64,000 nt of DNA from Bacteroidaceae bacterium (GTDB lineage Bacteria; Bacteroidota; Bacteroidia; Bacteroidales; Bacteroidaceae). This document shows positions 788 to 63,235 of this stretch, piece after piece (position 1 is the first letter of the stretch; every line of letters starts with the position of its first letter). Under the pieces are notes generated by a model. It ran no database searches. It saw nothing but the letters and a program-made list of their open reading frames with translations, and was not told the origin of the DNA. The translations under genes and the position numbers were made by a program. The DNA lies in contig JAILRU010000033.1 in the NCBI GenBank assembly GCA_024697945.1, forward strand, positions 1 to 64,000, read 5' to 3'.

Positions 788-2566
788 TTACCTTAGGTAT
801 ATTTTTTGGGTCACTTGGGCATTCCTGTTGTGAGCTTTGACGATGTAGATTCCGCTGGGAAGACCAATGAGGGGCAGGGTTATGCAGTTCTCTCCGCTCA
901 ACATCTTCATGCCGGTTGTGCTAAAGACCTCGATATCGGCTTCGCGGTTGGTCACAAGCTCCCAGTTCTCGAACTTCACATCGAGAGTAGTGCCAGCCAT
1001 TTCGATGAAGCCAGTACTCTCCTCGCGGATGTATGTGGGCTGGAATTCATTGCCATATCGGTCCACCACAGAAACAGCAAACCGATAGCCGCTCAGACGA
1101 TTTTCGGGAATGAGGAAGGAATTGGTGTAACAGGTTTTCAGCAGATAGGTAGACAGGATTCCTCCTGCCGTACTGCGTTCTGCACTCGCATCGCTGATGT
1201 TGTCGGGAATGGCATAGACGGCATAGCGAACTCGACCCAGCGAGTCCCAAATGAGCGAATCATTCTCCCATCGGAGATTCTCTACAGAGCCGTATGAAGG
1301 TGCATCTTTCCAATCGATGGCAGGAGTAAGGGCTGGACGCTGATACTTGTTCCTTTTGAGCCATTCACCCAGTCCGCTTACCTTCTTGCCGTCGATGTCG
1401 CTAGCGGAATAATAGATTTGCCCGGGAGCAGCATTTTCCGTATATTGGCGAGAGTATTGCATCTGCTGCCCTACTTCACTCCAGTCGGAGCTGGTGTTGC
1501 TGGATTGCAGGAAGGTCAATGAGTGGCTGGCATAGTGATGGCGTCCGAACTGCTTTGCTACTGTGGACCACCACTGTGTCATAGGGCCGAAGGGATTGGT
1601 GCTGTGATTGGTCTTCCAGTAGATTTGTGGCGAGATGTAGTCGATGGTGCCCTCTTCGAGCCAAGCCACAGGGTCGGAGAAGATGCCGTTGTATTGCCAA
1701 TCGCTTGCCACAGGCATCCTCTCCACTCCATGGCTGGCTGCTACAGAGGCATTGGTGCAGGCCGCTCCAGCTGGCGAGATGCCAAACTTGCACGCCGGAT
1801 CTACCTCCTGAATCATCTCGTACACATCGGCCACCATCTTGTTGACGTTTGCCCGTCGCCAATCAGCGAAACTCAAGTCTGTACCGGAAGACTGCCAATC
1901 CTCGTAGTCGTCTGCCTCGCTCGTGGTCGGGATGCCGCTGGGATAGAAATAGTCGTCGAAGATGATGCCGTCGATGTCGTACTTCTCTATCAGCTCTCGG
2001 CAGACATTCACGATGCGCTCATTGGTTGCATCGAGGGCGGGATTGAGGATGATGGTGGTTGTGCCGCTGGAATTAGTGTAGCTGAGCAGCATCTTGGCAT
2101 TTTTGAGTCTGCGGTCTTGGGCTGTATTCCATCCTTCGGCAGTGGTAGACCACCTGTAGGGATTGACCCACGCATGGCACTCCAATCCGCGATTGTGGCA
2201 CTCTGCTACCATGAAAGCCAAAGGGTCCCAACCTGGATTCTTACCTCGCTGCCCGGTCAGATAACTGGACCAAGGCTCATAGCTGGACTTGTAGAAGGCA
2301 TCGCACATCGGGCGAACCTGAAAATAGACGGCGTTGAAGTTGTTTTCCTGAAGCACGTCCAAATACCGAATCATCTCCTCCTTTTGCTGATTGCGAATGT
2401 TGATAGTATAGCCAGTCGTGCTCGGCCAATCGATGCCATAGACGGTTGCCATCCAGACGCCGCGCACTTCGCGCTTGACAAATCTGTCTGCACCCCAGGC
2501 AGAAAAGATGAAAAGGTGAAAAAGTGAAAAGGTGAAAAGATAAAAATGCCAGAAAGTGAATCGCAT
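788..2566 (-). CDS. Secreted family-10-like glycosyl hydrolase (DUF187/GHL10) with type IX sorting tail
   Basis: The 592-residue protein has a signal peptide of about 26 residues followed by the GHL10/DUF187 TIM-barrel signature RGVWMATVYGIDWPS, then FQVRPMCDAFY and CHAWVNPYR, over about residues 30-380. Members are thought to act on cell-wall or host glycans; the substrate is unknown. The last 70 residues, ending GIYIVKAHNRNAQVTQKIYLR-like, resemble a type IX secretion C-terminal sorting domain, which fits the PorE-like protein at 57.6 kb. The hydrophobic core of the signal peptide is encoded by the simple repeat at about 2512-2552, of the kind that fills gaps between genes elsewhere. It is the last gene of an operon, five bases after the esterase gene. 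Confidence 0.8.
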   Translation of the reverse strand: MRFTFWHFYLFTFSLFHLFIFSAWGADRFVKREVRGVWMATVYGIDWPSTTGYTINIRNQQKEEMIRYLDVLQENNFNAVYFQVRPMCDAFYKSSYEPWSSYLTGQRGKNPGWDPLAFMVAECHNRGLECHAWVNPYRWSTTAEGWNTAQDRRLKNAKMLLSYTNSSGTTTIILNPALDATNERIVNVCRELIEKYDIDGIIFDDYFYPSGIPTTSEADDYEDWQSSGTDLSFADWRRANVNKMVADVYEMIQEVDPACKFGISPAGAACTNASVAASHGVERMPVASDWQYNGIFSDPVAWLEEGTIDYISPQIYWKTNHSTNPFGPMTQWWSTVAKQFGRHHYASHSLTFLQSSNTSSDWSEVGQQMQYSRQYTENAAPGQIYYSASDIDGKKVSGLGEWLKRNKYQRPALTPAIDWKDAPSYGSVENLRWENDSLIWDSLGRVRYAVYAIPDNISDASAERSTAGGILSTYLLKTCYTNSFLIPENRLSGYRFAVSVVDRYGNEFQPTYIREESTGFIEMAGTTLDVKFENWELVTNREADIEVFSTTGMKMLSGENCITLPLIGLPSGIYIVKAHNRNAQVTQKIYLR

Positions 2567-2571
2567 AGCTT

Positions 2572-3432: not shown

Positions 3433-3456
3433 ATCTCTCATTTTAAGCTCACCCTA

Positions 3457-11164: not shown

Positions 11165-11259
11165 CGAAATATAATTAAGAATTAAGAGTTAAGAGTTAAG
11201 AAAAATACATAAAGAGAAAAACTATGATGCTTTATCTCTGTAAAGTCAACTATTTTTTG

Positions 11260-11948: not shown

Positions 11949-14441
11949 ATGCGTAATATACTATTCTCCCTGCTCTTTCTGCCGGCATTGATGGCAGCGG
12001 AAACAATTGATGTTAATAAGATTCGTCTGGTTGGGCCCTACCCTATGACGAAGCCTTTTATGACGGATACACTCGATTCGGAAGGGAATCGGATTGATTT
12101 GGATGAAGATTTCTTAATTCATAATTCTTCGCAAAGCTCAGGCGCAGGCGGAACACAATTCACAATTCATAATTCTAAAGGGGCCGGAAGAGAAGTTAAA
12201 GGAGATGAAGGCTTTGTGCTCTCTGTTGAGGCAGATGGGGGTAAGGCTCTTTATGTCGCCGGCTTCACCATGCAGAACACGGGTTTTGCGAAGGGTAAGG
12301 TCAACGTGAAGTGCGAGAGCAAGCACAAGCTCTTCATTGACGGCAATGAGCAGGGCGGCGACTTCGAGTTGGTTCCTGGGAGGCACGAGGTGAGCATTAA
12401 GTTGCTTCAAAAGGGCGACAAGCCTGATACACTCAGTGTTTCTGTGGAAAGTGAGCAGCCTATCGAAATCAATCCTGATGGCAAGCGTTATTGGACGAAT
12501 GCCGACATGATGCATGGCGAACGCATCAATGGCGTGGAGCTCTCCAGTTCGGCCAAGTATGTCCGCATCCATAAGAGCATTACCTACAAGGGCGGCGAGA
12601 CAGGAAGCAAGGACATCTTTATCGACCTCACGACAGGCAAGGAGTTCAACCTCGACGGCTTCCAGTACTGGTTGCCAGATGGCGACCGCTATCTGCGTTC
12701 TTATCGCGAGGCGGAGGGCACTTGGTGCTACGAGACGGTGGACATAAAGACGGGCGAAAAGACCTTTGTCGGCAAATACACAGGCAAGGGACACGCCTAC
12801 CCGACCAAGGACCTGAAGCACTTCCTTGTGACCATCGACGAGAAAGTGCCAGAGGAGAAGAACAAAGACGTGCATCAGATACTTGAGCCCGATGACCGTC
12901 AGCCCGGCTGGCGTAATCGCCGCAACTACTCGCTCTACGACATCGAGACGGGTATCACGACGCCCATCACAAAAGGCGCTCGCAATGTCTATGTCACTCC
13001 AAACAAGAACGCAAGCCGCTATTTGATTTCCATTCGCACAGAACAACTGACAGAGCGTCCCTTCGAGTTCACTGACCTGCTTCTGCTCGACGCAGCCACA
13101 GGAAAGGTCGATACGCTGGTTCGTCACGACGGTTTCATTGGCTCGTTCCAGTTCTCACCAGACGAGAAATATGTCTCTCTGACAGGTAGCCCTGAGGCTC
13201 TCGGTGGCATAGGCAACACACTTCCCAAAGGCGTTACGCCAAGCAGCTACGAGTACGAGTTGTTTCTCATTGACCTTCAGACAAAAGAGAAACATTGCTT
13301 GACGCGTGACTTCGACCCGTCCGTCACGTCTTATCAATGGTCGGAACAGGATGGCATGATTTATGCGCTTTGCGAAAACCGCGACACAAAGAGCATGTAT
13401 CGCATCAATCCGAAGGACGGGGCCGCTGAGCTTTTGTCTCTCTCCGAGCCCTATATATATAGTAGCTTCAGTCTGGCAAAGGAGAAGCCCTTCCTAGCCT
13501 ATATCGGTGAGAGCAGCATGAGCACAGACCGGTGCTGGCTTCGCGACCTCAAGACAGGAAAAGAAAAAGTGCTTTGTGACCTGAACCCCACTCGACTCAA
13601 GGACATCCTGCTTGGCGAGTGCCGCGACTGGAACTTCAAGGCAGAGCGAGGCGATACCATCTATGGTTGCTACTACTTGCCGCCTTTCTTCGACGAGACA
13701 AAGCAATACCCGATGCTCGTCTATTACTATGGCGGTTGCTCGCCTGTAGGCCGATACCTCGACAGCTACTACAACTATCAGGAATGGGCAGCTATGGGCT
13801 ACGTGGTCTATGTGATTCAGCCTTCAGGTTGCAGTGGTTTCGGTCAAGAGTTCGCTTCCAGGCATGTGAATGCATACGGCGACTATACAGCCGACGATAT
13901 CATTCAGGGCACCAAACAATTCTGCAAGGAACATCCGTACGTCAAGGCAGACAAGATAGGATGTATGGGTGCGAGCTACGGAGGCTTCATGACGATGTAC
14001 CTGCAAACTGTGACCGACATCTTCGCTGCTGCCATGAGTCATGCAGGCATCAGTAATCCTGCCAGCTATTGGGGCTACGGCTACTGGGGCTACTCCTACA
14101 GTACGACCTCTGCGGCTCACTCCTACCCCTGGAACAACATGGAACTATACAGCGGACATGCCCCGCTCTTCAATGCCGACAAGGTGCACACGCCCATCCT
14201 TTTCATGCATGGCGGAGCAGATACGAACGTGCCCATCAACGAGAGCATTCAGATGTTCACAGCACTCAAACTGCTCGGCCGGGAGTGTGCTTTCATTACG
14301 GTTGAAGGTGAGAACCACCATATCCTTAACTACGACAAGCGCATTCGTTGGCATGACAGCATCATGGCTTGGTTTGCCCGTTGGCTGCAGGACGACCCAA
14401 CTTGGTGGAACTCGATGTATCCAGAGAAAAACCTGAAGTAA
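11949..14441 (+). CDS. Secreted S9 family prolyl oligopeptidase/dipeptidyl peptidase
   Basis: An 830-residue serine peptidase with a signal peptide (MRNILFSLLFLPALMAAE), a beta-propeller-like middle (KYVSLTGSPEA, PDGDRYLRSY) and a C-terminal alpha/beta-hydrolase domain. The triad is visible: Ser in CMGASYGGFM near residue 675, Asp in GGADTNVP near 755, and His in GENHHIL near 788. It probably trims peptides in the periplasm, like DPP-type S9 enzymes of Bacteroidales. Residues about 55-77 are encoded by two copies of an AATTCATAATTC-type repeat (12112-12128 and 12155-12177) that also occurs between genes. The stop overlaps the mutS2 start by one base (TAATG), so the two genes are coupled. Confidence 0.87.
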   Translation: MRNILFSLLFLPALMAAETIDVNKIRLVGPYPMTKPFMTDTLDSEGNRIDLDEDFLIHNSSQSSGAGGTQFTIHNSKGAGREVKGDEGFVLSVEADGGKALYVAGFTMQNTGFAKGKVNVKCESKHKLFIDGNEQGGDFELVPGRHEVSIKLLQKGDKPDTLSVSVESEQPIEINPDGKRYWTNADMMHGERINGVELSSSAKYVRIHKSITYKGGETGSKDIFIDLTTGKEFNLDGFQYWLPDGDRYLRSYREAEGTWCYETVDIKTGEKTFVGKYTGKGHAYPTKDLKHFLVTIDEKVPEEKNKDVHQILEPDDRQPGWRNRRNYSLYDIETGITTPITKGARNVYVTPNKNASRYLISIRTEQLTERPFEFTDLLLLDAATGKVDTLVRHDGFIGSFQFSPDEKYVSLTGSPEALGGIGNTLPKGVTPSSYEYELFLIDLQTKEKHCLTRDFDPSVTSYQWSEQDGMIYALCENRDTKSMYRINPKDGAAELLSLSEPYIYSSFSLAKEKPFLAYIGESSMSTDRCWLRDLKTGKEKVLCDLNPTRLKDILLGECRDWNFKAERGDTIYGCYYLPPFFDETKQYPMLVYYYGGCSPVGRYLDSYYNYQEWAAMGYVVYVIQPSGCSGFGQEFASRHVNAYGDYTADDIIQGTKQFCKEHPYVKADKIGCMGASYGGFMTMYLQTVTDIFAAAMSHAGISNPASYWGYGYWGYSYSTTSAAHSYPWNNMELYSGHAPLFNADKVHTPILFMHGGADTNVPINESIQMFTALKLLGRECAFITVEGENHHILNYDKRIRWHDSIMAWFARWLQDDPTWWNSMYPEKNLK

Positions 14442-37510: not shown

Positions 37511-37575
37511 GGTATAAGTTTATGATTTATAAGTTAATTAGTTTTTGAGTATATAAGTTTATAAGTTCATGAGTT

Positions 37576-40624: not shown

Positions 40625-40648
40625 TATATTGTGTTTTGAATTTTGAAT

Positions 40649-41200
40649 TTACTGATTTTGAATTATAGTATATATATCCTTTGTGTTACGTCCAAAGCCA
40701 TCATAGTCCAAGCCAAAGCCAACGACGAAGTCATCGGGAATCTCCTTGCAGCAGTAGCGGATATCGAGCTTGACCTGCAGCTTTGTCGGCTTAAGCAGAA
40801 GCGTGCAGATGTCGATGCTCGCGGGATTGTGCCCTTTCAGCGTATCGAGCATGTGAGCCATTGTGAGACCCGTATCGACAATATCCTCTACGATGATGAC
40901 GGGGCGGTCGGTGATGTCGATGTTCAGTCCGATTACTTCGCGAATGCTGCCAGTCGAGTTCGTGCCTTGATAGGATGCAAGCTTGACGAAAGAAATCTCG
41001 CAGGGCAAATCAATCTCCCTGAGGAGGTCTGCAGCAAAAATGAAGGAGCCATTGAGGACTGCGAGAAAGACGGGCTGACGTCCTGCATAGTCGCGGGTAA
41101 TCTCGTCGGCAACACGCTTTATCTGCTGCTTTAGTTCCAATTCCGGAATGGAGATGGCGAATGTCTTGTCCTTCACTTGAATGGTTTCTTGTTTTTGCAT
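40649..41200 (-). CDS. hpt: Hypoxanthine phosphoribosyltransferase
   Basis: A 183-residue PRTase with the PRPP-binding loop VIIVEDIVDTGLTM near 98-111, the flexible loop SFVKLASYQGTNSTG near 70 and the C-terminal VVGFGLDYDG that recognises the purine. It salvages hypoxanthine and guanine. First of the hpt-adk-obg-pgeF-M23 run. The Crp-like regulator gene ends 11 bases upstream, so it may be part of the same transcript. Confidence 0.93.
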   Translation of the reverse strand: MQKQETIQVKDKTFAISIPELELKQQIKRVADEITRDYAGRQPVFLAVLNGSFIFAADLLREIDLPCEISFVKLASYQGTNSTGSIREVIGLNIDITDRPVIIVEDIVDTGLTMAHMLDTLKGHNPASIDICTLLLKPTKLQVKLDIRYCCKEIPDDFVVGFGLDYDGFGRNTKDIYTIIQNQ

Positions 41201-41811: not shown

Positions 41812-41871
41812 CTTTTAACTTTTTAACTTTTTCACATTTTTTTTCACCTTTTCAACTTTTGTGTAAGGTCC

Positions 41872-43696: not shown

Positions 43697-43727
43697 CAAA
43701 TGTACAAAAAAAAAATGACTTGGCAAA
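43697..43727 (-). promoter_or_regulatory. Bacteroidetes promoter for lepA
   Basis: On the minus strand, TTTG (plus 43724-43727), a 19-base spacer and TACATTTG (plus 43697-43704). The lepA start is about 23 bases downstream. Confidence 0.75.
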
Positions 43728-43788
43728 CTCATTAACTCATAAACTCATAAACTTTTTAATTTTTTTTACATTTTCACCTTTTTACCTT

Positions 43789-44737: not shown

Positions 44738-44788
44738 CAAAGAAAAAATGAAAAAATAAAAAAATGAAAGAATGAAAAATGAAGAATC

Positions 44789-48535: not shown

Positions 48536-48757
48536 TTACAATTTGTTTCTTAATGCTATCATGGCTGCATACATCATTTTCTCTTTCAGGTCACCATCCT
48601 TTCTTGGTTCCCTTCCATTCTTGGCAATCCACTCGTTCACCTCTGCCAGCTTCTGTTGCATTCTGTCATTGGGCGTGGGAGCTGCCACTTTGGGACGAAC
48701 ACCATCCAACAGAGGGTCGTCAAATAACTCTAACAATTCCTTTGGCCATTCTACCAT
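48536..48757 (-). CDS. Small helix-rich protein related to the nuclease N terminus
   Basis: A 73-residue protein (MVEWPKELLELFDDPLLDGV). It shares the FDDPLL motif and hydrophobic lead-in with the start of the next gene (IDKELEAIFDDPLLKMSE), so the two may have come from duplication or from splitting of a longer nuclease gene. The rest (DRMQQKLAEVNEWIAKNGRE) is a helical segment I associate with T5orf172-type nucleases. Flanked on both sides by ATTTACAATTTG repeats. The function is unknown; it could be a specificity or assembly subunit. Confidence 0.6.
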   Translation of the reverse strand: MVEWPKELLELFDDPLLDGVRPKVAAPTPNDRMQQKLAEVNEWIAKNGREPRKDGDLKEKMMYAAMIALRNKL

Positions 48758-48791
48758 ACCATTTACAATTTGAGAATTTACAATTTACAAT

Positions 48792-50804
48792 TTATTTCTC
48801 TTCGTAATTTAAACCCATCATGTGGCGGATTTTCTCATTCTTGATTTTCTGCAAGGCGATTCCCAGTTCTCTTACCTTTGGGTCGGGGTCATCCACAGAC
48901 GGCACCTTCCCATTATGTGCCGCCACATATTCTTTCAACGGTCCCTTAAAGAGCGTAATTGCTTGCTCCAGCGTCATATCATATTTCTGTTCTGCAATGG
49001 TATCCTGAATAATCTTCAAGGTCTTGGCATCCACAGATTTGGAAATCACTTCGTAAGCTCTTTGGAATGGATTGATAGTATCTATCAGGTTGATGCTTAG
49101 CTTGTCTATATTGATAAACCTATTGGCAATCTTAATCATTCTGTTCCCTTCACTGGGTTGGTCATCGTTGTCAGGAATCGAAGAAATCGGATTGCCCTTA
49201 TCATCTACAATGTCATTACCTTTTATAATTGTGTCGAGCAACACACGCTGACGAACTTCCTCTACTTCCCCTTCTGATAGTTCAGGATAACGTTCACGTA
49301 TCACCTTTGGTATCAAGTGTTGGGTGATTGTTTCTGCTGTGGTAGAGCCGCTTAATGCTTTCACCACCATATCATCTTGTAAGATAGCCGCTTTCAAATC
49401 ATCTAACTGACTTTCCACAATGGTCTGTGTCTTTACGCTCGACAAGGGTTTCAGACCTTCAACCACGATGGTATGCGCCAAGTCTTCTCCTGGCTTATCC
49501 TCGTCCTTTATGGTCTTGAACTTCCAACTGGGTGCCATCACCTGCTCCATCAGTAGCGAGGCAGTGATAGCTTTCAGGAAATCGTTCACAGCCACCTTCA
49601 CCTCGGCTTGTTCTGCTTCAGGCATTGCTATCATATTCACAAATCGGGCCGTTTCCTTCCCTTCGCAGTCGCGTGTACATCTTCCTATTATTTGAATGAC
49701 CTCAGTAAGTGAGCCACGAACGCCAATAGTCAGGCACATCTCGCACCATTGCCAGTCAAACCCTTCCTTGGCTGTTCCGAGGGCAATAATAATATCCATG
49801 TCGTCACGACTCTTCATCTTCTGCAGATAGTCCTGCACCATATTACGCTCTTTCTGCTCATCCTCTACCAGGTCAGCCACTTTAAGCACTCTTCCATCCT
49901 TTGTCTTGACGAAGTAGATACCTGTGTAGATGTCCTTATGGTCTATGTTACCAATCTCCTTGATGATTTCAGACGTTTCCTGATATTTGCCTAAGCCCGT
50001 TGAAGCTCTTTGGTTCACGCTGGGAATGTGTATGATAGTCTTCTTTCTGGTGTCGAGCACTTCGCCAATGTGGTCCAGATACGAACCATGATAGAAGTGA
50101 TAGCCCAGCACAAGGTTCTTCAGATACTTATAGCCATTCAACTGCTGATAATAGTTATAGGTAATTGGGAAGAACTTAGCTTCGTCCTCTGCCCTGAGTA
50201 CAGGAATACCATCACCCCTGAAGTAAGAGCCCGTCATAGCTACAATATGTCCTGAAGAGTTGTTCATCACTCGTCGAACCACATCGCCAAGGTTCGAGTT
50301 TGCATCTGCGCTGGTATGGTGGAATTCGTCAATAGCCAATAGCGCATCATTGAACGTCTCGTCTGGCAGTTCCTTCATGGCATTACGTAGCGTAGCATGG
50401 GCACAGACCAGCACTTTGGCACTATGCGAAAAGAATTCAATGAAACGTCCCTTCTTGTCCTGTTCATTCTTCACGTCGGTCAGGTTAAAGTATGGTGCCA
50501 CCTTCCAGTTCGCAAAGAAGCCGCCCGTCATCAGGTCTGTGTTCTTGAACGAGCGTCCGATGCTCTTCTCTGGCACAGCTACCACCACTTTCTTGATACC
50601 TTGATGAGCAAGCTTATCCAAAGCGATATACATCAGCGCACGACTTTTACCAGATGCTGGCGGAGCCTTGATAAGCAGGAACCTCTTGTTTCGATGTTCA
50701 TAGGCCAAAGCCTGCATTTCACGCATTCCCAATGTGTCAGTAGCAGTTGCTTTTCCTGTTTGCAGGTAATGAATATCTACGATTTTGTTGCTATTTTGTT
50801 CCAT
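48792..50804 (-). CDS. SF2 DEAD/DEAH helicase of a restriction-like system
   Basis: About 670 residues starting MEQNSNKIVDIHYLQTGKAT. Walker A APPASGKSRA near 48, Walker B AIDEFHHTSA near 158, motif III AMTGSYF, motif V GTAKEGFDW and motif VI QIIGRCTRD define an SF2 translocase of the type III/ISP restriction class. It lacks a nuclease domain of its own. It lies between the methyltransferase gene upstream and the small protein and GIY-YIG genes downstream, all on the minus strand, but a plus-strand toxin-antitoxin pair separates it from the methyltransferase gene. The ATG at 50822 is an alternative start. Confidence 0.82.
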   Translation of the reverse strand: MEQNSNKIVDIHYLQTGKATATDTLGMREMQALAYEHRNKRFLLIKAPPASGKSRALMYIALDKLAHQGIKKVVVAVPEKSIGRSFKNTDLMTGGFFANWKVAPYFNLTDVKNEQDKKGRFIEFFSHSAKVLVCAHATLRNAMKELPDETFNDALLAIDEFHHTSADANSNLGDVVRRVMNNSSGHIVAMTGSYFRGDGIPVLRAEDEAKFFPITYNYYQQLNGYKYLKNLVLGYHFYHGSYLDHIGEVLDTRKKTIIHIPSVNQRASTGLGKYQETSEIIKEIGNIDHKDIYTGIYFVKTKDGRVLKVADLVEDEQKERNMVQDYLQKMKSRDDMDIIIALGTAKEGFDWQWCEMCLTIGVRGSLTEVIQIIGRCTRDCEGKETARFVNMIAMPEAEQAEVKVAVNDFLKAITASLLMEQVMAPSWKFKTIKDEDKPGEDLAHTIVVEGLKPLSSVKTQTIVESQLDDLKAAILQDDMVVKALSGSTTAETITQHLIPKVIRERYPELSEGEVEEVRQRVLLDTIIKGNDIVDDKGNPISSIPDNDDQPSEGNRMIKIANRFINIDKLSINLIDTINPFQRAYEVISKSVDAKTLKIIQDTIAEQKYDMTLEQAITLFKGPLKEYVAAHNGKVPSVDDPDPKVRELGIALQKIKNEKIRHMMGLNYEEK

Positions 50805-50853
50805 GATAAAATTATTTTTCACTTTTCACTTTTCACTTTCCATTTTTTTGTTG

Positions 50854-51415: not shown

Positions 51416-54169
51416 TCATTTCTTTGTCATTTTTTCGTAGAGCTTGAAGAGGCATTCCAGACGGGCTTCGTCTGAGGCGAAGGGATAGCCTGGGTAGCAG
51501 CTTTCCACAATATCATCCAGTTTGGCGTGAGCCTCACGCAAATCATCTGGCATTTTGTCTGGGTCATAAAGTTCTGCCAAAGTCTTTTCTGGATAATTTT
51601 CTCTTGTTATCAATACGTTCTCGGCTGCTTCCTTTATCTCTTGCTTCTTGTCAGAAGAGATTTTGGGGAATGGGAAGGTGTTGTAAACGATACTTGCAGA
51701 ATAAGCATATCGCATTTCAAGTCTACCACAAACGGCTTTCATCCACACATTATGGATGTATGATGAAACAATGCCAAAGACATAAGCATTTGCATTGGGA
51801 ATCATCTGAGCATTTGTGTTTGCAACAATTTCCTTTGAATTATAAGCGACTGGAACATAAATACGTCTTTCTGAGGAAACCACAGGCAATATTAAATAAT
51901 CAGAATCTGGTTGTCTGTCTTCTGTAAATAGATGAGGATAAGAAGCCCATTTCCTTGTTGCTTCCTTCGTACTTTCATTTCTTGTTACCCTAACGCCTTG
52001 AAGTCTTTTTATAATTTCAGGACAAGTCTCTATAATATCTATAGGGCATTCTTTTAACCAAAAACAGTATCTCTGCTTACCATTTATTAAATCATCAGCT
52101 CCCATATACTGACGAATATATGGCCTAAGATATGGATACTTATCTTCAACTTCTGCCTTTTTCATACTATCCATCAACAAAAATCCTCCATCTGTTGGTT
52201 GACTACCTTTAGTCATAATTGGTAATTCAGAAAGAGGATTGCTTCTATGATGTACTATTATGTTGGGCGCATCAAGTAGATAATAATTTATATTACTTGC
52301 CTTTGTCTTTATGTTGGAATAGATGTATTTATCTTCACTTGGTTGGGATGTCATACCAATAATAACACATGTAACTCCAGCATTATTTTTCGCATTGTTT
52401 TCCCATTTAAATGAAGTATGACAAAAATTTATCTGCACTCCAAATTCTTCAACATATGGCCAAAGAGCGAAAACTTGTTCGCCTTGACATATTGAGTTTG
52501 TACTTACGAATGCAAATTTAGCTTTACTTCTTTGAATATAATTTGCTCCAAGTACGAACCAACAAGAGATATAGTCCAAAGTCCTCCTTACCGGATTTGA
52601 AGGCATTACAATATCAACATCTGTTTTCTGTTCTTCCTGTTGCCATTTCGTTCCCAAATACGGTGGATTACCAAATATAAAGACTTCTTCCTCTGGGGTA
52701 TGAGGACAAACAACGTTCCAGTCGAGGCGACAAGCGTTGCCACAAACAATCTGAGTGATATTCTTCAGAGGTAGGGCTTTGGTGTTGACGCCAAAGTTTT
52801 CGTTGAGTTTTGTATTCATCTGATGCTCTGCCAACCAAAGCGACAACATCGCCACTTCGTGAGGGAAGTCGAGCAACTCAATGCCGTAGAACTGGCTTAA
52901 CTGAATCACGCTAGCATCAACCAAAAGCAATTCCCCCTGTGGGGTACACTTCTGCATCAAACGCAGAATGTCCATTTCAATGAAACGCAGGCACTTGTAG
53001 CTAATGATGAGGAAGTTGCCACTACCACAAGCTGGGTCGAAGAACTTCATCTTACTCATGCGCACCAGCAAAGCCCGACACTTCTTGATGATAGTTTTCA
53101 TCTCATCGTCGAACTGCTTCCTGGTCAAAGCGCCAATCTCCTTCATCTGGCGGCGACTTTCGTAAAGTTCGTTTAGCTTGTTGTACTCACCTCTTAACTC
53201 ATCGAGGAACAATGGGTTGATAACCTTCATAATGTTCGGCACAGAGGTATAGTGCATTCCCTGGTTAGCACGTTCCTCAGGGTTCACAACAGCCTGAATC
53301 ATACTTCCAAAGATGTCTGGATTGATGTCTTTCCAATCCAGCTCACCACATTCAAGTATGAGTTTGCGGGCCTTCATACCCATCTTGGGTATCTGAATAC
53401 GTTTGGAGAAGAGGCCACCATTCACGTATGGGAACTGCTTGACAATACTGGGGATGCTGGACTGACGGAAGGAAATATCCATGATGTTGAATGTCTCGTT
53501 CAGGTAGACAGTCAAATCAGAACCATCTTCTTTGGTGAACCGTCGAACGGATGATGTAAAGAGGTTGTCTTCGAAAATGCCTGTATCTTCCGCGAAAAAA
53601 CAGAACAAAAGACGACTGATAAAGATATTCAGGTCGCGCAGATCATCGTCGCTACGGAACTCGTTGTAGGCACGCAATTCGTCGTGCAACTTGGCCAGTT
53701 TCTCTGCCGCTTTGATGTCGGCAGGGCTTTCCTCCACATAATGCACACGCTCCACATCCATCAGGGGATAGAAGAAGGCGAAGTCGCTGGGCATACGTTC
53801 CAACAGGTTCTCGTAAGTATCCTTCTCGCGAAGGTCGTAGGCTAATAGGGTCTTGCCATCACTTACAGCAATAATTTTGGGAGCTGCCTTGATGACCTGC
53901 TGGTCGTGCTTCAGCCGTTCCAATCGTTCCGTCAGTTGTGTTGTGGGCGCAGCTTGATAGCAGAAAAGGCCTTTGATGAGCAATCCATCAAAAGTCTTCA
54001 AGACACCTTTACCTTCCTTGTAACGTTCAATGTCGCGTTCGCTTTTGCCAAAGGAGTGAAGCAACCAAAAGGCGACTTCCATACTCCCCTCGCCCCTTGA
54101 AGAGGGGTTGGGGGTGAGGCTGAGCCGTTGCTCTATCTCCCTATAGCCAAGTTGTAGTTTCTTTGCCAT
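51416..54169 (-). CDS. N6-adenine DNA methyltransferase (MmeI/YeeA-like) with target-recognition domain
   Basis: About 917 residues. SAM-binding motif I FDPACGSGNFL near 376 and catalytic NPPYLG near 499 mark a class I N6-adenine methyltransferase. About 620-830 is a target-recognition region, and the C-terminal ERASYP-like helical part resembles MmeI/YeeA proteins. The N-terminal 200 residues show no PD-(D/E)XK nuclease, so cleavage probably needs the GIY-YIG protein. DNA at 51.7-52.7 kb, coding for the recognition region, is clearly more AT-rich than the rest. MAKKLQLGY at 54169 is the likely start; the longest frame begins at 54235. A GC-rich repeat (54082-54122) encodes SLTPNPSSRGEGS near the N terminus. 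Confidence 0.85.
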   Translation of the reverse strand: MAKKLQLGYREIEQRLSLTPNPSSRGEGSMEVAFWLLHSFGKSERDIERYKEGKGVLKTFDGLLIKGLFCYQAAPTTQLTERLERLKHDQQVIKAAPKIIAVSDGKTLLAYDLREKDTYENLLERMPSDFAFFYPLMDVERVHYVEESPADIKAAEKLAKLHDELRAYNEFRSDDDLRDLNIFISRLLFCFFAEDTGIFEDNLFTSSVRRFTKEDGSDLTVYLNETFNIMDISFRQSSIPSIVKQFPYVNGGLFSKRIQIPKMGMKARKLILECGELDWKDINPDIFGSMIQAVVNPEERANQGMHYTSVPNIMKVINPLFLDELRGEYNKLNELYESRRQMKEIGALTRKQFDDEMKTIIKKCRALLVRMSKMKFFDPACGSGNFLIISYKCLRFIEMDILRLMQKCTPQGELLLVDASVIQLSQFYGIELLDFPHEVAMLSLWLAEHQMNTKLNENFGVNTKALPLKNITQIVCGNACRLDWNVVCPHTPEEEVFIFGNPPYLGTKWQQEEQKTDVDIVMPSNPVRRTLDYISCWFVLGANYIQRSKAKFAFVSTNSICQGEQVFALWPYVEEFGVQINFCHTSFKWENNAKNNAGVTCVIIGMTSQPSEDKYIYSNIKTKASNINYYLLDAPNIIVHHRSNPLSELPIMTKGSQPTDGGFLLMDSMKKAEVEDKYPYLRPYIRQYMGADDLINGKQRYCFWLKECPIDIIETCPEIIKRLQGVRVTRNESTKEATRKWASYPHLFTEDRQPDSDYLILPVVSSERRIYVPVAYNSKEIVANTNAQMIPNANAYVFGIVSSYIHNVWMKAVCGRLEMRYAYSASIVYNTFPFPKISSDKKQEIKEAAENVLITRENYPEKTLAELYDPDKMPDDLREAHAKLDDIVESCYPGYPFASDEARLECLFKLYEKMTKK

Positions 54170-54192
54170 AGTGGTTGATATTGAAGAAAGCG

Positions 54193-54207
54193 AACGGGAT
54201 TCGTTCA
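54193..54207 (-). promoter_or_regulatory. Small hairpin just upstream of the methyltransferase start
   Basis: GAACG and CGTTC (54193-54197 and 54203-54207) pair over a five-base loop, 24-38 bases before the ATG at 54169. It could limit ribosome access. Confidence 0.35.
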
Positions 54208-54265
54208 GAAACGCAGACACCAGCCAAGCGCGCATAAAAAAAACGTGGACAGTTTATACTTATCC

Positions 54266-55548: not shown

Positions 55549-57585
55549 ATGATAGTTTGCATTGCGGAGAAGCCATCTGTGGCTCGTGAGATTGCTCATG
55601 TGCTCGGAGCCAACACTCAGAAAGATGGCTACTTGGAGGGTAATGGCTATCAGGTGACCTGGACTTTCGGTCATCTGTGCGAGTTGAAGGAACCGCACGA
55701 CTATACGCCCATGTGGAAGAACTGGAGCCTGGGACAGTTGCCTATGATTCCACCTCGTTTCGGCATCAAACTCAAGCAGGACAAAGGGGTGGAAAAGCAG
55801 TTCCGCACCATTGAGGGACTTTTCCAGAATGCCGATGAAATCATCAACTGCGGTGATGCCGGCCAGGAAGGTGAACTCATCCAGCGCTGGGTGATGCAGA
55901 AGGCTGCGGCAAAGTGTCCCGTGAAGCGCCTGTGGGTGAACAGCCTGACAGAAGAGGCTATTCGCGAGGGATTCCGGACGCTCAAGGACCAAGACGTCTA
56001 TCAGGGTCTCTACGAAGCCGGCCTGATGCGAGCCATCGGCGACTGGCTGTTAGGCATAAACGCCACCCGCCTCTATACCCTGAAATATGCTGGCGGTAAG
56101 AATCAGGTCCTCAGCGTCGGAAGAGTGCAGACCCCTACCCTCGCCCTCGTCGTAGCACGACAAAGGGAGATTGACAACTTCGTGCCGCGCCAGTCGTGGG
56201 TGCTCTCTACGCTCTATCGCGACACGAAATTCAATGCGATTGTGCGCGACGAAGAGGCTGAAGCAGAGGATGCCGCCGCTGTTGCCGCTGCTGCGGAAAA
56301 GGGCAAGAAACAAAAGCCGAAGGGCATCATCTACAAGCCTTTGGAGTATGCCACGGAAGCCGAAGGAAAGGCTATTCTCGATGTGATTAAGGATAAGCCT
56401 TTCACGGTCCTCTCCGTCGAGAAGAAGAAGGGCACGGAGGCTCCTCCCAGACTCTACGACCTGACAGGATTGCAGGTGGATTGCAACAAGAAGCTGGGTC
56501 TTTCTGCCGAGCAGACCCTCTCCGTCATTCAGAGCCTGTACGAGAAGAAGGTTGCGACCTATCCGCGTGTCGATACGACCTTCCTGCCCGACGATGTCTA
56601 TGCCAAGTGTCCGCAGACGATGAACGGCCTCTACCAGACGAAGTTCGCAGGCGTGGCACCCTATGCCGACCTGATCCGACCGCTCGGAGGGGGCAAGGCT
56701 TTGCGCAAGTCCAAGAAGGTGTTCGACAACTCGAAAGTGACTGACCACCATGCCATCATCCCAACCGGAGTGATTCCGCAAGGCCTCACGGAACTGGAGC
56801 AGAAAGTCTTCGACCTCGTTGCCCGTTCCTTCATCGCTGCCTTCTATGACGACTGCCAGTTCGAGACGACAACCGTCCTGGGCGAGGTTTCTCTAACGGA
56901 CAACAGACAGCAGACTACAGACAACGTACAACAGACTACAGTCAACGGACAGCCTTCAATGTTTTCAGAGGGTTCTATCTTGTTCAGGACGACAGGCAAG
57001 GTGATTATTGAGGAAGGATGGAGGAAAGTATTTGCCAAAAATGAAGAATTAAAAATTAAAAATGAAGAATTAACCTCCGCGCAAAGCGGCACAGCTGAAG
57101 ATGGCAAGGCGGTAGCAGATTCTTCATTCTTCACTCTTCACTCTTCATTTTCAAAGGGCGAGAGCGGGCCACACACGCCTTCTCTCTCCGAGAAGTGGAC
57201 CACGCCGCCGAAACCCTACACCGATGCCACGTTGCTTCGGGCTATGGAGACGGCGGGCCGTTTCGTCGAGGACGAGGAACTGCGCGATGCCCTGAAGGAA
57301 AACGGAATCGGACGACCCAGTACGCGTGCTGCCATCATCGAGACCCTGATTCGCCGCCACTACATCCGTCGCGAGCGTTCTTCGCTACACCCCACTCCAA
57401 CAGGCTTTGAGCTTATCGACCTCATCCACGAGGCTCTGCTCAAGAGTGCGGAGCTTACAGGACGCTGGGAGAAGAAGCTGCGGCAGATAGAACGCCACGA
57501 GTATGAGGCCCGCACTTTCCTCGACGAACTCAAACAGATGGTTTCGGACATCGTTCTTGCAGTACTTCGCGAGCCTAAACAATAA
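55549..57585 (+). CDS. topB: DNA topoisomerase III (type IA)
   Basis: A 678-residue type IA topoisomerase. The TOPRIM start MIVCIAEKPSVAREIAHVLG, the DxE region NCGDAGQEGELIQRW near 102, GRVQTPTLALVV near 190 and the active-site Tyr in ATYPRVDTTFLP near 337 are present. It relaxes and decatenates DNA. Two inserts look repeat-derived: about 56894-56953 (encoding LTDNRQQTTDNVQQTT) and 57037-57152, where a NEELKIKNEEL-encoding repeat and a SSFFTLHSSF-encoding repeat form inverted ends around a unique centre. Both lie between the catalytic core and the C-terminal GRPSTRAAIIETLI motif. Confidence 0.92.
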   Translation: MIVCIAEKPSVAREIAHVLGANTQKDGYLEGNGYQVTWTFGHLCELKEPHDYTPMWKNWSLGQLPMIPPRFGIKLKQDKGVEKQFRTIEGLFQNADEIINCGDAGQEGELIQRWVMQKAAAKCPVKRLWVNSLTEEAIREGFRTLKDQDVYQGLYEAGLMRAIGDWLLGINATRLYTLKYAGGKNQVLSVGRVQTPTLALVVARQREIDNFVPRQSWVLSTLYRDTKFNAIVRDEEAEAEDAAAVAAAAEKGKKQKPKGIIYKPLEYATEAEGKAILDVIKDKPFTVLSVEKKKGTEAPPRLYDLTGLQVDCNKKLGLSAEQTLSVIQSLYEKKVATYPRVDTTFLPDDVYAKCPQTMNGLYQTKFAGVAPYADLIRPLGGGKALRKSKKVFDNSKVTDHHAIIPTGVIPQGLTELEQKVFDLVARSFIAAFYDDCQFETTTVLGEVSLTDNRQQTTDNVQQTTVNGQPSMFSEGSILFRTTGKVIIEEGWRKVFAKNEELKIKNEELTSAQSGTAEDGKAVADSSFFTLHSSFSKGESGPHTPSLSEKWTTPPKPYTDATLLRAMETAGRFVEDEELRDALKENGIGRPSTRAAIIETLIRRHYIRRERSSLHPTPTGFELIDLIHEALLKSAELTGRWEKKLRQIERHEYEARTFLDELKQMVSDIVLAVLREPKQ

Positions 57586-57638
57586 AAAGCGGCCTTTATT
57601 CGTTATATAAAAAGGTGAAAAAGTGAAAAAGTGAAAAG

Positions 57639-59921
57639 GTGAAAAAAGTGAAAAGGGACTATTGGCTGTTTGCTTTCTGCTGTCTTCTGCTGCTTTCTGC
57701 TTGCACGGCTGAGGTGCACGTGAAGAAGGGTGACCAGTTCTATGCTATCGGCGAGTACTATGATGCTGCTGCTGAATACAAGAAGGCTTATTCCCAGACA
57801 CAGACCACAGAGAAGTTGAAACGAGGTCAGCGTGCTTTCAAGATGGCACAATGCTACCGCCGCATCAACTACACGGCAAAAGCTATCGGTGGCTATCAGA
57901 ATGCCATCCGATACGGCCATCCCGATTCTATGGCCCTTCTCTATCTGGGTCAGCTTCAGCAGAAGAGCGGCGACTACAAGAGTGCCATCAAGTCCTATAA
58001 TGCTTTCCTTGAGAAAGTGCCTGGTGACACGTTGGCACTGAATGGGTTAAAGGGTTGCGAACTTGCTCCGAAATGGAAGGAACAGTTCTCGCTCTACAGC
58101 ATCAAGAAAGAGCCCATCCTGACCAGCCGAAGGAGCGATTTCTGTCCTGCCCTCTTAGGCGACGACAGCGATATGCTCTACTTCACTTCCACCAGAAATG
58201 ATGCCAAAGGTAACGAGATAAGCGGTATCACGGGTACCAAGAGTGCCGACGTTTTCTTCTCGCGGAAGGACGACAAGGGCAAATGGGAACAGCCCGAGCC
58301 GGCAGAAGGCGAACTCAACAGCGAATACGAGGAGGGAACCTGCTGCTTCTCGCCCGACGGCAAGACAATGTACCTGACACGCTGCACCTACGACTCAGAT
58401 TATCCCCGCTACGCGCAAATCTATACCAGCGCCCGCAGCGATGCCTCCTGGAGCAACCCTCAGCTGCTGCAAATCAGCAAGGACACACTCTCCAGCTATG
58501 CCCATCCTGCCGTTTCGCCCGACGGCCTCTGGCTCTACTTCGTCAGCGATATGCCAGGCGGATTGGGCGGGTTCGACATCTGGCGCATTGCCCTCACCGA
58601 CCACGGATTGGGCGGAGTGGAGAATGTGGGCTACCCCATCAATACTCCAGGCGACGAGATGTTTCCCGTGTTCCGTCCCAACGGCGAGTTCTACTTCTCC
58701 AGCAACGGTCATGTCGGCATGGGTGGTCTCGACATCATCAAGGGCGTGTGCGACAGCCTTGGTGTCTGGACGCTCGAAAACCTGAAATACCCGATGAATT
58801 CCAGCGGCGACGACTTCGGTATGACCTTTGAGGGACTGCACAACCGCGGCTTTTTCTCCACCAATCGTGGCGATGCCCGCGGATGGGACCACATTATGGC
58901 ATTCGAACATCCTGAGGTCATCCAGACGGTCAAGGGATGGGTCTATGAGAAGGATGGCTACGAGTTGCCGGAAGGCCTTGTCTATATGGTTGGCGACGAC
59001 GGCACCTATCTCAAAATCAGCGTTCGCGGTGACGGCTCCTTCGAACAGGAAGTGAAGCCGAAGGTCAACTACATCTTCCTCGGAACCTGCAAGGGCTACC
59101 TCAACCACAAAGAGGAGCTGAGCGTCGATACCAGCAGCGTGAGTCAGGAATTCACCCTACAGTTCCCCCTGGCCAGCATCACGAATCCCGTTCTCATCCG
59201 CAACATCTTCTATGAATTCGACTCCGCAGAACTGCTGGACAGCTCCACGATTGCGCTCGACAGCCTCGTGGTCTTGCTCAACGAGAATCCGAACGTCACC
59301 ATCGAACTTGCCGCGCATTGCGACTATCGTGGAAAGGACGAGTACAACGAACGCCTCTCGCAGCGAAGGGCAGAGAGTGTTGTCAACTATCTCATCGCGC
59401 ATGGAATCGACACACTCCGCCTCTCTCCGGTTGGTTATGGCGAGAAACGTCCGAAGATTGTAACACGCAGAATAGCAGCCACATACGATTTCCTCAACGA
59501 GGGCGACACCCTGACCGAAGCTTTCATCTTGCAGTTGGAGGATGAGGAAAAGCAGGAAATATGTAATGCCCTGAACCGCCGTACTGAGTTCAAGGTGCTG
59601 AGGACAACCTACAAGCTGTTCGAGCCCGAAACAAAGCCCGAGGCAGAGCAGCCTCCTTCTGACACGCCCGAAGGAGAGAATGGAGAAACTGGGGAAACCT
59701 TAGACGAGGGTCAGTCTCCAGATAAGCCCGAAGACGCAGAAAACGCCGCCCCAGAGGTTGTTCCAGAAGAGCCTAAGGAACCTGTTGAAGGGGAGAAACC
59801 CGAAGCCAAGACGGCTCCAAAAGAGAGGAGAATCCCAGAAAGACCCATCAGGGATAGGACAGCTGCCAGAGACAGCACGATGAAGGCAGTAAGGGCCCGC
59901 AGAGAAGCCGAAGCGCATTAG
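57639..59921 (+). CDS. porE: PorE-like type IX secretion lipoprotein (TPR-propeller-OmpA)
   Basis: A 760-residue outer-membrane-associated lipoprotein (LLLLSACTA lipobox). In order: TPR repeats (about 28-135), a PD40-type beta-propeller (about 160-430: MLYFTSTRN, GKTMYLTRC, LWLYFVSDMPGGLGGFDIW), a carboxypeptidase-regulatory-like domain (about 435-500), an OmpA peptidoglycan-binding domain (NIFYEFDSAELL near 521; SQRRAESVVNYL) and a Glu/Pro-rich tail. This matches PorE (PG1058) of P. gingivalis, which links the type IX apparatus to the cell wall. The start is GTG within a GTGAAAAAG repeat, which supplies the Lys-rich n-region MKKVKR. The end overlaps convergent trkA by four bases. Confidence 0.82.
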   Translation: MKKVKRDYWLFAFCCLLLLSACTAEVHVKKGDQFYAIGEYYDAAAEYKKAYSQTQTTEKLKRGQRAFKMAQCYRRINYTAKAIGGYQNAIRYGHPDSMALLYLGQLQQKSGDYKSAIKSYNAFLEKVPGDTLALNGLKGCELAPKWKEQFSLYSIKKEPILTSRRSDFCPALLGDDSDMLYFTSTRNDAKGNEISGITGTKSADVFFSRKDDKGKWEQPEPAEGELNSEYEEGTCCFSPDGKTMYLTRCTYDSDYPRYAQIYTSARSDASWSNPQLLQISKDTLSSYAHPAVSPDGLWLYFVSDMPGGLGGFDIWRIALTDHGLGGVENVGYPINTPGDEMFPVFRPNGEFYFSSNGHVGMGGLDIIKGVCDSLGVWTLENLKYPMNSSGDDFGMTFEGLHNRGFFSTNRGDARGWDHIMAFEHPEVIQTVKGWVYEKDGYELPEGLVYMVGDDGTYLKISVRGDGSFEQEVKPKVNYIFLGTCKGYLNHKEELSVDTSSVSQEFTLQFPLASITNPVLIRNIFYEFDSAELLDSSTIALDSLVVLLNENPNVTIELAAHCDYRGKDEYNERLSQRRAESVVNYLIAHGIDTLRLSPVGYGEKRPKIVTRRIAATYDFLNEGDTLTEAFILQLEDEEKQEICNALNRRTEFKVLRTTYKLFEPETKPEAEQPPSDTPEGENGETGETLDEGQSPDKPEDAENAAPEVVPEEPKEPVEGEKPEAKTAPKERRIPERPIRDRTAARDSTMKAVRARREAEAH

Positions 59922-61294: not shown

Positions 61295-61312
61295 CTTTGA
61301 ATTTTGAATTTA

Positions 61313-63235
61313 TTAATTTTGAATTGCCTTCTTTATGGCTTCCGCATCCAGTCCCACGAGGTGATAGAGCTCTTCGGGGGTCCCGTGTTCCACGAAATGG
61401 TCGGGCAGTCCGAGCCGAATGACCTCGGGATGTAGGTTATGGTCGGCCATATATTCAAGGACAGCGGAACCCAGTCCGCCTCGGATGACTCCGTCTTCCA
61501 CGGTGACTATGCGGCGACAGGTCGTGCCGACATCGTGGAGAATATCCTCGTCAATAGGTTTAAGGAAACGCATATCGTAGTGCCGGACGAGAATGCCTTC
61601 TTCGCGTAGCTCGCGAACGACACTTGCTACGACATTACCCAAGGGACCGAGACTAAGAACCGCCGTATCTTCTCCGTCGGAGAGCTTGCGTCCGCGTCCC
61701 ACAGGCAGTTCCTGCATCGGACAGCGCCAGTCGGTCAGGACGCCGCGACCTCGCGGATATCGGATAACGAACGGGCCTTTGTCGGGCAGCTGTGCCGTGT
61801 ACATGAGGCAGCGAAGCTCATGCTCGTCCATCGGCGAGGAAATAGTGAGGTTGGGTATGGGTCGCAGGGCTGCAAGGTCGAAGGCTCCGTGATGGGTAGC
61901 TCCGTCCTGCCCCACAAGTCCAGCTCGGTCGAAGCAGAAGACGACATGAAGGCGGCAAAGCGCCACGTCGTGAATGATATTGTCGAAGGCACGTTGGGCG
62001 AAGGAAGAATAGATGTTGCAGAAAGGAATCAGCCCCTCTTTCGCAAGTCCGCCGGAGAAGGTGACTGCGTGACCCTCGGCAATTCCGACGTCGAACGTGC
62101 GTTCGGGCATTTCCTTCATCATAATGGAAAGGCCGCAACCTGTTGCCATCGCGGGAGTGATGCCGACAATCTTGTCGTTCTGTCGCGCCAATTCAAGCAA
62201 TGTTTCGCCGAAAACATCCTGATACTTCGGCGGCAAATTTTGAATTTTGAATTTTGAATTTTGAATGTCTTCCAGACGTTTTCCTGTCTCAGGGTCGTAC
62301 TTACCAGGAGCATGGAAGACGATTGGATTCTTCTCTGCAGCCTTGAAGCCCTTGCCTTTGATGGTGTGCAGGTGCAACAGTTTGGGCCCCTTCATATCCT
62401 TTATCTGCTGAAGCGTATTCACAAGCTCGATGACATTGTGTCCGTCGATGGGGCCGAAATAACGAATGTTCATTCCTTCGAAGATGTTCTGCTGGCCAAC
62501 AAGCAGCGACTTGACGGAGTTGTTGAAACGTAGAATCTTCTGTCGCCTGTTATCACTAAGGAAACCCAACCGGACCAATTCTCTAGAAAGACGGAAACGA
62601 ACGTTGTTATAGAGTTTGGAAGTGTGTAACTGATGCAGATACTGCTTCATTCCGCCGACACTATGGTCGATGCTCATATTGTTGTCGTTCAGAATGATAA
62701 GCAAGTTGTTGGGTGTGCTGCTGGCATTGTTGAGACCCTCAAAAGCGAGTCCGCCACTCATACTGCCATCACCAATCACAGCCACAACCTTACGGTCTCT
62801 TTCACCTTTTGCCTTTTCACCTTTAATTGTAGTAGCCACCGCCATACCGAGAGCGGCTGAAATGCTGTTGGACGCATGGCCGCAGGCAAAGGTGTCGTAT
62901 TCACTCTCATCTGGCGAAGGGAATGGACGAAGTCCGCCCAAATGACGGTAAGTGGGAAAGGCCTCGCGGCGTCCTGTCAGTATCTTGTGGCCTGCTGCCT
63001 GATGCCCCACATCCCAAACAATACGGTCGTAGGGTGTATCGAAAACATAGTGCAGGGCAACCGTAAGTTCAACCACTCCAAGTCCGCTCGCGAAATGACC
63101 TGGATTGTTGGCCATCTCCTGTATGATTTCCTGACGGAGCTCGCTGCATACTTGAGGCAGTGCTTCGATGGGCATAGCACGTAGGTCAGCCGGCAACTTT
63201 ATCTTCGACAGCAGCTCTTGAGGCTTATTTTTCAC
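61313..63235 (-). CDS. dxs: 1-deoxy-D-xylulose-5-phosphate synthase
   Basis: About 640 residues. Thiamine-diphosphate motif [19 protein letters not shown] near 150, [20 protein letters not shown] near 45, GPIDGHN and [15 protein letters not shown] near 425 identify DXS, which joins pyruvate and glyceraldehyde 3-phosphate in isoprenoid synthesis. The longest frame starts at a TTG at 63259, but the -7 element at 63257-63264 overlaps it; the GTG at 63235 is the first usable start. Two repeat-derived segments are in frame: about 62797-62829 ([11 protein letters not shown]), only eleven or so residues before the cofactor motif, and about 62236-62266 ([10 protein letters not shown]), from TTTTGAA copies. 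Confidence 0.94.

Follow-up and report, generated by a model that had tools for sequence, protein, structure and literature searches.

Tandem arrays of 7- and 8-bp units with a preferred heptamer-array length in genes and intergenic gaps of a Bacteroidaceae genome

Tandem arrays of 7- and 8-bp units occur both in the gaps between genes and, in frame, within genes in the first 64 kb of contig C77 (JAILRU010000033.1, positions 1 to 64,000) of a Bacteroidaceae bacterium (GCA_024697945.1; genome of 3.68 Mb in 138 contigs), a stretch referred to here as the window. Two features of the heptamer arrays of this genome exceed those of ordinary microsatellites, namely a preferred size and a small number of shared units. 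We give even chances to the explanation that the arrays are tiny dispersed repeats, which would be copied between sites of the same genome, changed by whole units, and filtered by the reading frame. An earlier examination of the window, based on its letters alone and referred to below as the original prediction, had proposed a process that inserts or expands such repeats and tolerates them in proteins; it did not note that the arrays have a preferred length, share few unit families, abut promoter boxes, and are sorted by location.

Preferred length and shared units

The own-genome sample comprised 54 stretches (872,315 bases), 14 of which (306 kb) were non-random, being the window and contigs chosen for holding an AATTGAC 20-mer. 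Genes were taken from our own dicodon calls, with starts placed at the longest open reading frame (ORF), and window genes were named from Pfam. All genomes used are incomplete metagenome assemblies (completeness 61-97%), with a listed contamination of 4.33% for the genome carrying the window, whose uxaA places it closest, among named relatives, to rumen assemblies of Bacteroidaceae/Prevotellaceae.

A strict scan of the window for periods 2-30 detected 12 arrays at period 7, eight at period 8, one at period 11, and none at periods 2-6, 9, 10, 12, or 13; additional strict matches had periods of 14, 16, 21, 22, 24, and 28, with single ones at 17, 25, and 29. The window repeats exceed chance by far, the mean number of arrays in the shuffled window (n=5) being 0.0 for all periods except 3 (0.2). 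The own-genome sample holds 186 heptamer and 55 octamer arrays, and array sequence is 77% A+T (A 0.39, T 0.38, C 0.13, G 0.10). Called genes make up 91% of the sample, and 150 of the 241 arrays fall in the 9% outside them: 83 heptamer arrays lie within genes and 103 between them, compared with 8 and 47 octamer arrays. Genes are therefore depleted in arrays yet far from empty, and heptamers are much commoner in genes than octamers. This count inside (83/186 heptamer, 8/55 octamer arrays) and outside genes, suggested with the original prediction for the whole genome, thus covers 872 kb of it.

Nearly half of the heptamer arrays (92/186) measure 31-34 bp. Runs of AATT boxes at a spacing of 7 bp numbered 30 with three boxes, 7 with four, 24 with five, and 2 with six or more; five AATT boxes span 32 bp, which corresponds to four heptamer units plus four bases. 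In the 40 stretches unselected for arrays, 52 of 115 arrays were 31-34 bp long, with 5 four-box and 12 five-box AATT runs, and when the 54 stretches were resampled, five-box runs outnumbered four-box runs in 0.995 of 2000 draws. Mismatch-free runs measured 32 bp in 12 cases, 31 bp in three, and 33 bp in one, and the longest run of identical 4-bp boxes per array was four in 57 arrays, five in 61, and at least six in 5. The copy-number distribution of the heptamer arrays is thus neither open-ended nor monotonic, with its mode at 32 bp. The 31-34 bp share was 25/35 in promoter-adjacent arrays, 11/19 in N-terminal, 16/25 in C-terminal, and 21/39 in mid-gene arrays, with a weak peak in other intergenic arrays (19/68). 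Among 59 loci of relatives (the uxaA loci L039-L076 and L115, whose genus is not established, together with stretches of genomes G005, G018, G029, and G250), AATT runs of five boxes numbered 14, compared with three runs of four boxes; the stretches sampled from other genera mostly held too few arrays for length to be tested.

The heptamer units do not fit a local and independent origin of each array. They fall into 46 families, whereas random units of equal composition would give 134 on average (112-149), and the five largest families account for 45%, compared with 13% for random units. The exact 20-mer AATTGACAATTGACAATTGA (AATTGAC type) was found at eight places in the genome and its reversed control at none. 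Moreover, copies of the irregular 26-mer AATTTTGAATTTATTAATTTTGAATT with at most two mismatches occupy 13 places, of which three are exact, three lie in one gene, and two lie in the window; the outer flanks of its copies differ, and the left side frequently extends an AATTTTG array. For arrays of the AATGAAG type, 5 of 16 places share TTGCTACCGCC, or a variant, as their outer flank, among them the copy at 57119 in topB of the window. Genomes of the genus also show dialects of units, as in G022, in which AACTATG accounts for 42 of 47 listed places, drawn from nine arrays.

Repeat-coded peptides in relatives

The repeat stretch of dxs encodes 36 residues here and 30-32 residues in all 27 relatives showing the flanking motif (29 were fetched), and the topB peptides are absent from 16 aligned relatives, some of which have other, longer sequence at that place. 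In-frame stops reported for dxs relatives were discounted: in L012, L015, and L016, read on the sense strand, they fall upstream of the start region, whereas L014 and L019 were read antisense. In a MutY-like gene (locus L136), one loop is filled with AATTCAY units in the own genome, with AATGGCC/AATGGTC/AATCTTC units in the sister G020, and with AATGGTC units in the sister G013, and is short and devoid of an array in G005, G008, and a second own-genome copy. The absence of the repeat-coded dxs and topB peptides from aligned relatives, which was the orthologue check put forward with the original prediction, and the MutY loop, which three sister species fill with different heptamer arrays and three other copies leave without one, both support a process that inserts or expands repeats tolerated in proteins. 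The second MutY-like gene (G000:C121:21863-22810), 80% identical to the first and without repeats, may be a paralogue or assembly contamination.

Other loops vary in a similar manner. In the pfkB-type kinase loop, G008 carries a 32-bp array of a different unit (AATGGAA type, five AATG boxes), G020 has a 20-bp array, either a remnant or a seed, G013 has longer non-repeat sequence, and G009 and G050 have short loops. In uxaA (32 relatives aligned), the variable loops hold other heptamer-like sequence, hold longer repeats reading SLTPNPSPVGEG...GGAGGEAF, or stay short. Several uxaA relatives (L039-L076) have longer in-frame loop repeats reading SLTPNPSPVGEGN...GGAGGEAF and SPPALPFREGAVTNDSE...SAPSRKGRAGGES; these longer repeats look like palindromic-element peptides.

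Location of the arrays and their distribution among genomes

The arrays of the window are as follows, with the strand given where one applies:

2502-2546, minus strand: octamer array near the start of the GHL10 protein gene (788-2566, minus strand), reading FYLFTFSLFHLFIF in a signal-peptide-like position
11173-11201, plus strand: intergenic heptamer array AATTAAG/GAGTTAA, with a TAnnTTTG box 8 bp from its end
12116-12175, plus strand: two AATTCAY heptamer stretches that flank a G+C-rich segment and lie in frame within the S9 peptidase gene (11949-14441); the strict-array part is 12154-12175
16410-16440, plus strand: heptamer array in mutS2 (14369-16930), reading IKNEKLKIK
24773-24804, plus strand: CAACTCT heptamer array in a variable loop of uxaA (24523-25980), reading TLNSKLSTLN
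24923-24952, plus strand: second uxaA array, CTCAACT, of weaker score, 118 bp from the first and in another variable loop
28628-28667: intergenic array of AATTCAT followed by CTCTAAA
31179-31220: A-rich octamer array between the genes at 30379-31194 and 31248-32285
32251-32361: arrays of 11-bp units, GCCTCACATAG and CTCATAGGATC, covering the end of the DUF4435 gene and sequence that follows it
32599-32629, minus strand: heptamer array in the pfkB-type kinase gene (32454-33665), reading CQFSIVNCQ
37526-37576: octamer array TATAAGTT in the gap between the genes at 36677-37510 and 37576-38214
40634-40664: irregular AATTTTG array, a copy of the irregular 26-mer with two mismatches
41813-41840: octamer array TTTTAACT in a gap
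43726-43753: octamer array AACTCATA in a gap
44264-44295, minus strand: octamer array in the GT2 glycosyltransferase gene (43789-44721), reading TNSQTHNLIN
44309-44368, minus strand: second octamer array (period 8/24) in the same gene
44549-44582, minus strand: AATTGAY heptamer array of five boxes (34 bp) in the same gene, reading NYQLSIVNYQ
44742-44777, minus strand: octamer array GAAAAAAT in a gap, with a TAnnTTTG box 4 bp from its end
48757-48794: heptamer array TACAATT in a gap
50816-50846, plus strand: 31-bp array of the TTTTCAC type; a TACCTTTG box lies 7 bp away from its end
56895-56951, plus strand: degenerate heptamer array (period 7/21) in topB, reading within TDNRQQTTDNVQQTTVN
57040-57070, plus strand: heptamer array in topB, reading NEELKIKNEE
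57119-57147, plus strand: heptamer array in topB, reading SSFFTLHSS, with the flank GGCGGTAGCAG (CTGCTACCGCC on the opposite strand)
57610-57645, plus strand: octamer array AAAAGGTG ahead of an OmpA-family gene
61300-61325: exact copy of the irregular 26-mer, between dxs and a TrkA-domain gene
62236-62266, minus strand: AATTTTG heptamer array in dxs (61313-63259)
62800-62824, minus strand: weak array in dxs

The places quoted in the original prediction, where the same repeat families were seen in gaps and genes, each hold a repeat of the described kind, some of them only as variants or on the opposite strand: 37515 reads TATAAGTT, 31195 and 44745 are A-rich octamers, and 24920 is a degenerate copy. 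The figure of at least a dozen host genes proved too high for the strict detector, which gives 10 period-7/8 arrays inside eight genes (those encoding the GHL10 protein, S9 peptidase, pfkB-type kinase, and GT2 glycosyltransferase, and mutS2, uxaA, topB, and dxs); weaker in-gene arrays lie near 12116, 24923, 44309, 56895, and 62800.

In-gene arrays are concentrated at the gene ends of the own-genome sample: of 91 arrays, 21 are no more than 75 bp away from the called start, compared with 5.2 expected, and 28 no more than 130 bp away from the stop, compared with 9.1 expected. What they encode differs accordingly, with a mean hydropathy of +0.94 for N-terminal, -0.61 for mid-gene, and -1.23 for C-terminal readings (N-terminal versus mid-gene, P=4e-5), and with values above 1 in 12/21, 3/42, and 0/28 readings, respectively; VSLSFIICHLSFSPAGAQ and CIIVNCQLSIVN are examples of hydrophobic N-terminal readings. 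Several C-terminal arrays directly precede a motif like IYDLSGR...GIYIVNGKKV, which we take to be a type IX-like sorting domain; the Pfam scan covered the window's GHL10 protein, which matches Por_Secre_tail. Among the 83 in-gene heptamer arrays, 42 are stop-free in every sense frame and 7 have stops in all three, compared with 18 and 41 in the antisense frames. Replication-strand asymmetry showed no clear bias (44 versus 32 intergenic and 18 versus 22 in-gene arrays).

Intergenic arrays of this genome frequently abut a putative promoter box, TAnnTTTG being the -7 box of the -33/-7 consensus. Past the 150 intergenic arrays, 37 TAnnTTTG boxes start within 4-8 bp, compared with ~2.9 expected from random intergenic positions. 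In the 27 listed cases, TTTT lies 19 bp upstream of the box in 12 and 20 bp upstream in 10, and of six AATTTTG arrays close to a box, four have TTTG exactly 19 bp before it.

Of 198 Bacteroidales genomes, 147 contain matches to a four-box AAYT pattern, the count per genome ranging from zero to hundreds. Within the genus, 56 of 61 genomes contain matches; 17 of the 61 have at most 10 and 15 have at least 200. These counts are rough loads: the backwards control gives 278 matches versus 737 for the pattern here and exceeds the pattern in some genomes, probably since reversed boxes also occur in A/T heptamers. The AATTGAY four-box pattern was found in 74 stretches labeled viral_contigs (including L237 and L268), which densely carry heptamer arrays (276 in all); of ten proteins from two of these putatively viral stretches, seven match PHROGs, one of them a weak portal match (E 0.00065).

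Origin of the arrays and comparison with known repeats

From these observations we infer a cycle of copying and filtering. A heptamer array would typically consist of a 4-bp box present up to five times with 3-bp spacers (~32 bp), and existing array sequence would be copied elsewhere in the same genome, probably via short template-switch or gene-conversion-like repair; arrays additionally gain or lose whole units. Frame-breaking insertions would be lost. Survivors would occupy sites of little sequence constraint, such as gaps, linkers, and surface loops, or sites at which the repeat chances to be useful: readings rich in T might provide hydrophobic stretches near protein starts, such as signal-peptide cores, polar ones might form linkers toward protein ends, and arrays of TTTTCAC or AATTTTG might provide the -33 region of promoters.

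Several observations weigh against this explanation. Relatives that are ~90-93% identical differ by whole units (14, 9, and 18 bp), and neighboring units resemble one another more than permuted units do (z 6 and 7), as local slippage predicts. Among the loci fetched there was neither a donor/recipient pair with a clean empty site nor a pair of strains close enough to follow an insertion event base by base; in dxs, ~33 bp occupy the place of ~15 bp in relatives. The recurrence of the irregular 26-mer could partly be convergent, because it often extends an AATTTTG array, and the sharing of the TTGCTACCGCC flank may partly stem from duplicated C-terminal-domain coding sequence. The excess of five over four boxes is clear for AATT only, other boxes showing just a sharp upper limit: runs of three to six boxes numbered 24, 13, 10, and 0 for TTTT, 13, 14, 10, and 0 for AAAA, and 3, 11, 2, and 0 for ATTC. 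In the 59 relative loci, identical boxes number four in 33 arrays and five in 24, and 30 of 96 arrays measure 31-34 bp, with tails reaching 73 bp; octamer arrays of the own genome are without a single length peak. Some N-terminal arrays may sit upstream of the true start, since the called starts are those of the longest ORFs. Promoter abutment is weak in relatives (3/61 arrays, 0.8 expected) and absent in the viral-contig loci (1/219, 1.1 expected), and therefore looks particular to this lineage. Across the 61 genomes, RVT_1 was found in 20 and associated with lower load (P 0.03), and Y1_Tnp was found in 23 with no association (P 0.33).

It is possible, although we consider it less probable than copying, that each array grew in place from a short seed by pure local slippage, with polymerases slipping most at ~7 bp and with A/T-rich seeds and reading-frame selection accounting for the sharing of units. 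The whole-unit differences between relatives and the likeness of adjacent units fit slippage, as do the seed-like 20-bp array in the G020 kinase loop and a polymerase-footprint hypothesis reported for heptamer excess (PMC4692102). Slippage accounts poorly, however, for the peak of AATT arrays and mismatch-free runs at 32 bp with no shoulders at 25 and 39, for 46 rather than ~134 unit families, for the 13 places of the irregular 26-mer, and for the genome-specific dialects. The idea that each unit is drawn independently from a degenerate template was rejected because adjacent units are too alike. We regard it as unlikely that selection keeps the arrays, in-gene copies included, as sites bound by a nucleoid or regulatory protein (five boxes, 32 bp): the five-box mode of AATT arrays and the fixed distance to the -7 box in the own genome agree with such sites, whereas the 46 unit families, the placement in mid-gene loops, the sister orthologues without arrays or with other units, and pattern counts of at most 10 in 17/61 and at least 200 in 15/61 genomes of one genus do not.

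Movement by a dedicated transposition enzyme, either a REP-type Y1 transposase or a reverse transcriptase, appears even less probable. Repeated irregular copies and shared flanks would be expected of such an enzyme, but the high-load genomes G005 and G029 have matches to neither RVT_1 nor Y1_Tnp and G018 has none to Y1_Tnp, evidence that covers two families and in which single absences are weak at 61-97% completeness. As drivers, reverse transcriptase and Y1 transposase are unsupported across the 61 genomes. Finally, an artefact of assembly or codon use is very improbable: the genomes are metagenome assemblies and the own genome lists 4.33% contamination, yet arrays with unlike units occur in records of several projects (RGIG, RUG, UBA, metaWRAP), the periods are 7 and 8 instead of 3, 6, or 9, and most arrays (150 of 241) occur outside called genes, in 9% of the sequence.

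Palindromic elements of Rickettsia place one repeat both in gaps and in frame in unrelated genes, and are palindromic, hairpin-forming, and longer. The analogy drawn with them in the original prediction holds for in-frame insertion tolerated in unrelated protein genes; it fails for structure, the arrays here being direct 7/8-bp repeats, often ~32 bp long, rather than palindromes; a G+C-rich segment adjoining the array at L136 is, however, predicted to fold. The cyanobacterial STRR heptamers are very short dispersed DNA without genes of their own, as are the arrays here. The same may be said of REPINs and of the small dispersed repeats cited alongside them (PMC3116915). REPINs are hairpin doublets tied to RAYT transposases (PMC3116915), unlike the present arrays, whose load is not linked to Y1_Tnp.

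G-rich heptamers GGGAATC / GGGGA(C/T)T are described from Xanthomonas and Nostoc. Those of Xanthomonas (GGGAATC) mostly comprise four units, with unit positions 1-4 and 6 conserved; they are mostly intergenic, occur also as inverted pairs, vary in length between relatives, and in their four-unit form are tied by the authors to G-quadruplex formation (PMC4692102). The arrays here are likewise dispersed heptamers with a preference for about four units, less sharp in relatives, but they are A+T-rich and lack G-tracts for a G-quadruplex, and 83 of 186 lie in genes, compared with 7-11% intragenic in Xanthomonas (PMC4692102). Inverted pairing as the basic architecture was rejected here, although such pairs occur in Xanthomonas: same-period neighbor pairs less than 250 bp apart (n=39) comprised 18 inverted, 16 direct, and 5 ties. 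Taken across the two studies, a length rule common to both systems would need a cause other than the G-quadruplex, because the arrays here are 77% A+T. Nostoc heptamer repeats span 39 to 179 nt, and the size rule described here is not shown for them within the same account (PMC4692102). TAACTGA repeats are reported from Beggiatoaceae, Cyanobacteria, and five Bacteroidetes as a system of one unit, compared with 46 families here, and the parts of that report available to us do not describe a preferred length, promoter abutment, or hydrophobic N-terminal readings (PMC4679880). Borg tandem repeats resemble the present arrays in lying in gaps and ORFs and in being A-rich, fast evolving, and often in disordered protein parts; their units in ORFs always have a length that is a multiple of three and are almost specific to a locus (PMC9879509), whereas the in-gene units here are heptamers (83 arrays) or octamers (8 arrays) and units are common to many loci. 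Judged by title and abstract, none of the papers listed in a search of mostly non-subscription literature concerns heptamer arrays in rumen Bacteroidales; a minisatellite of Porphyromonas gingivalis is the subject of one of them (PMC4596501).

More tentatively, the heptamer arrays may represent one widespread element that spreads by copy-and-paste across Bacteroidales and has an intrinsic length of ~32 bp (four to five boxes), likely the same as the four-unit heptamers of Xanthomonas, which would supply promoter -33 regions, signal-peptide cores, and linkers. If the arrays are copied as proposed, a bacterial genome would be partly built from one repetitive stock, and one short block would act as promoter region, signal peptide, linker, or loop depending on its landing site. 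The preferred length in A/T-rich arrays casts doubt on the G-quadruplex reading of four-unit heptamers and calls for a mechanism measuring ~32 bp, and the spread of pattern counts from none to hundreds within one genus means that comparative genomics or genetics could reveal the cause.

Further observations concern sequence around the arrays. G+C-rich segments (CTTCGCAAAGCTCAGGCGCAGGCGGAAC and CCGCGACTACAATCGCGCCTTGGTGCTAAAGCATCCAAG, or variants) common to several loci adjoin arrays in genes and gaps (window 12128-12153; L136:4632-4676; L187:15436-15480; L140:4876-4920), and this segment is predicted to fold well at L136 (z -4.93) and more weakly in the window (z -2.28). Arrays of 11-bp units form composite blocks of two or three different units (window 32251-32361; L122:5024-5286; L125:19727-19939). 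An MmeI-type restriction-methylation gene with five MmeI Pfam domains lies at 51416-54235 of the window. In G250 (L202:1-1500), 9-bp arrays are clustered with masked stretches between them, and several measure exactly 25 bp (three AATYCGT copies with 2-bp spacers).

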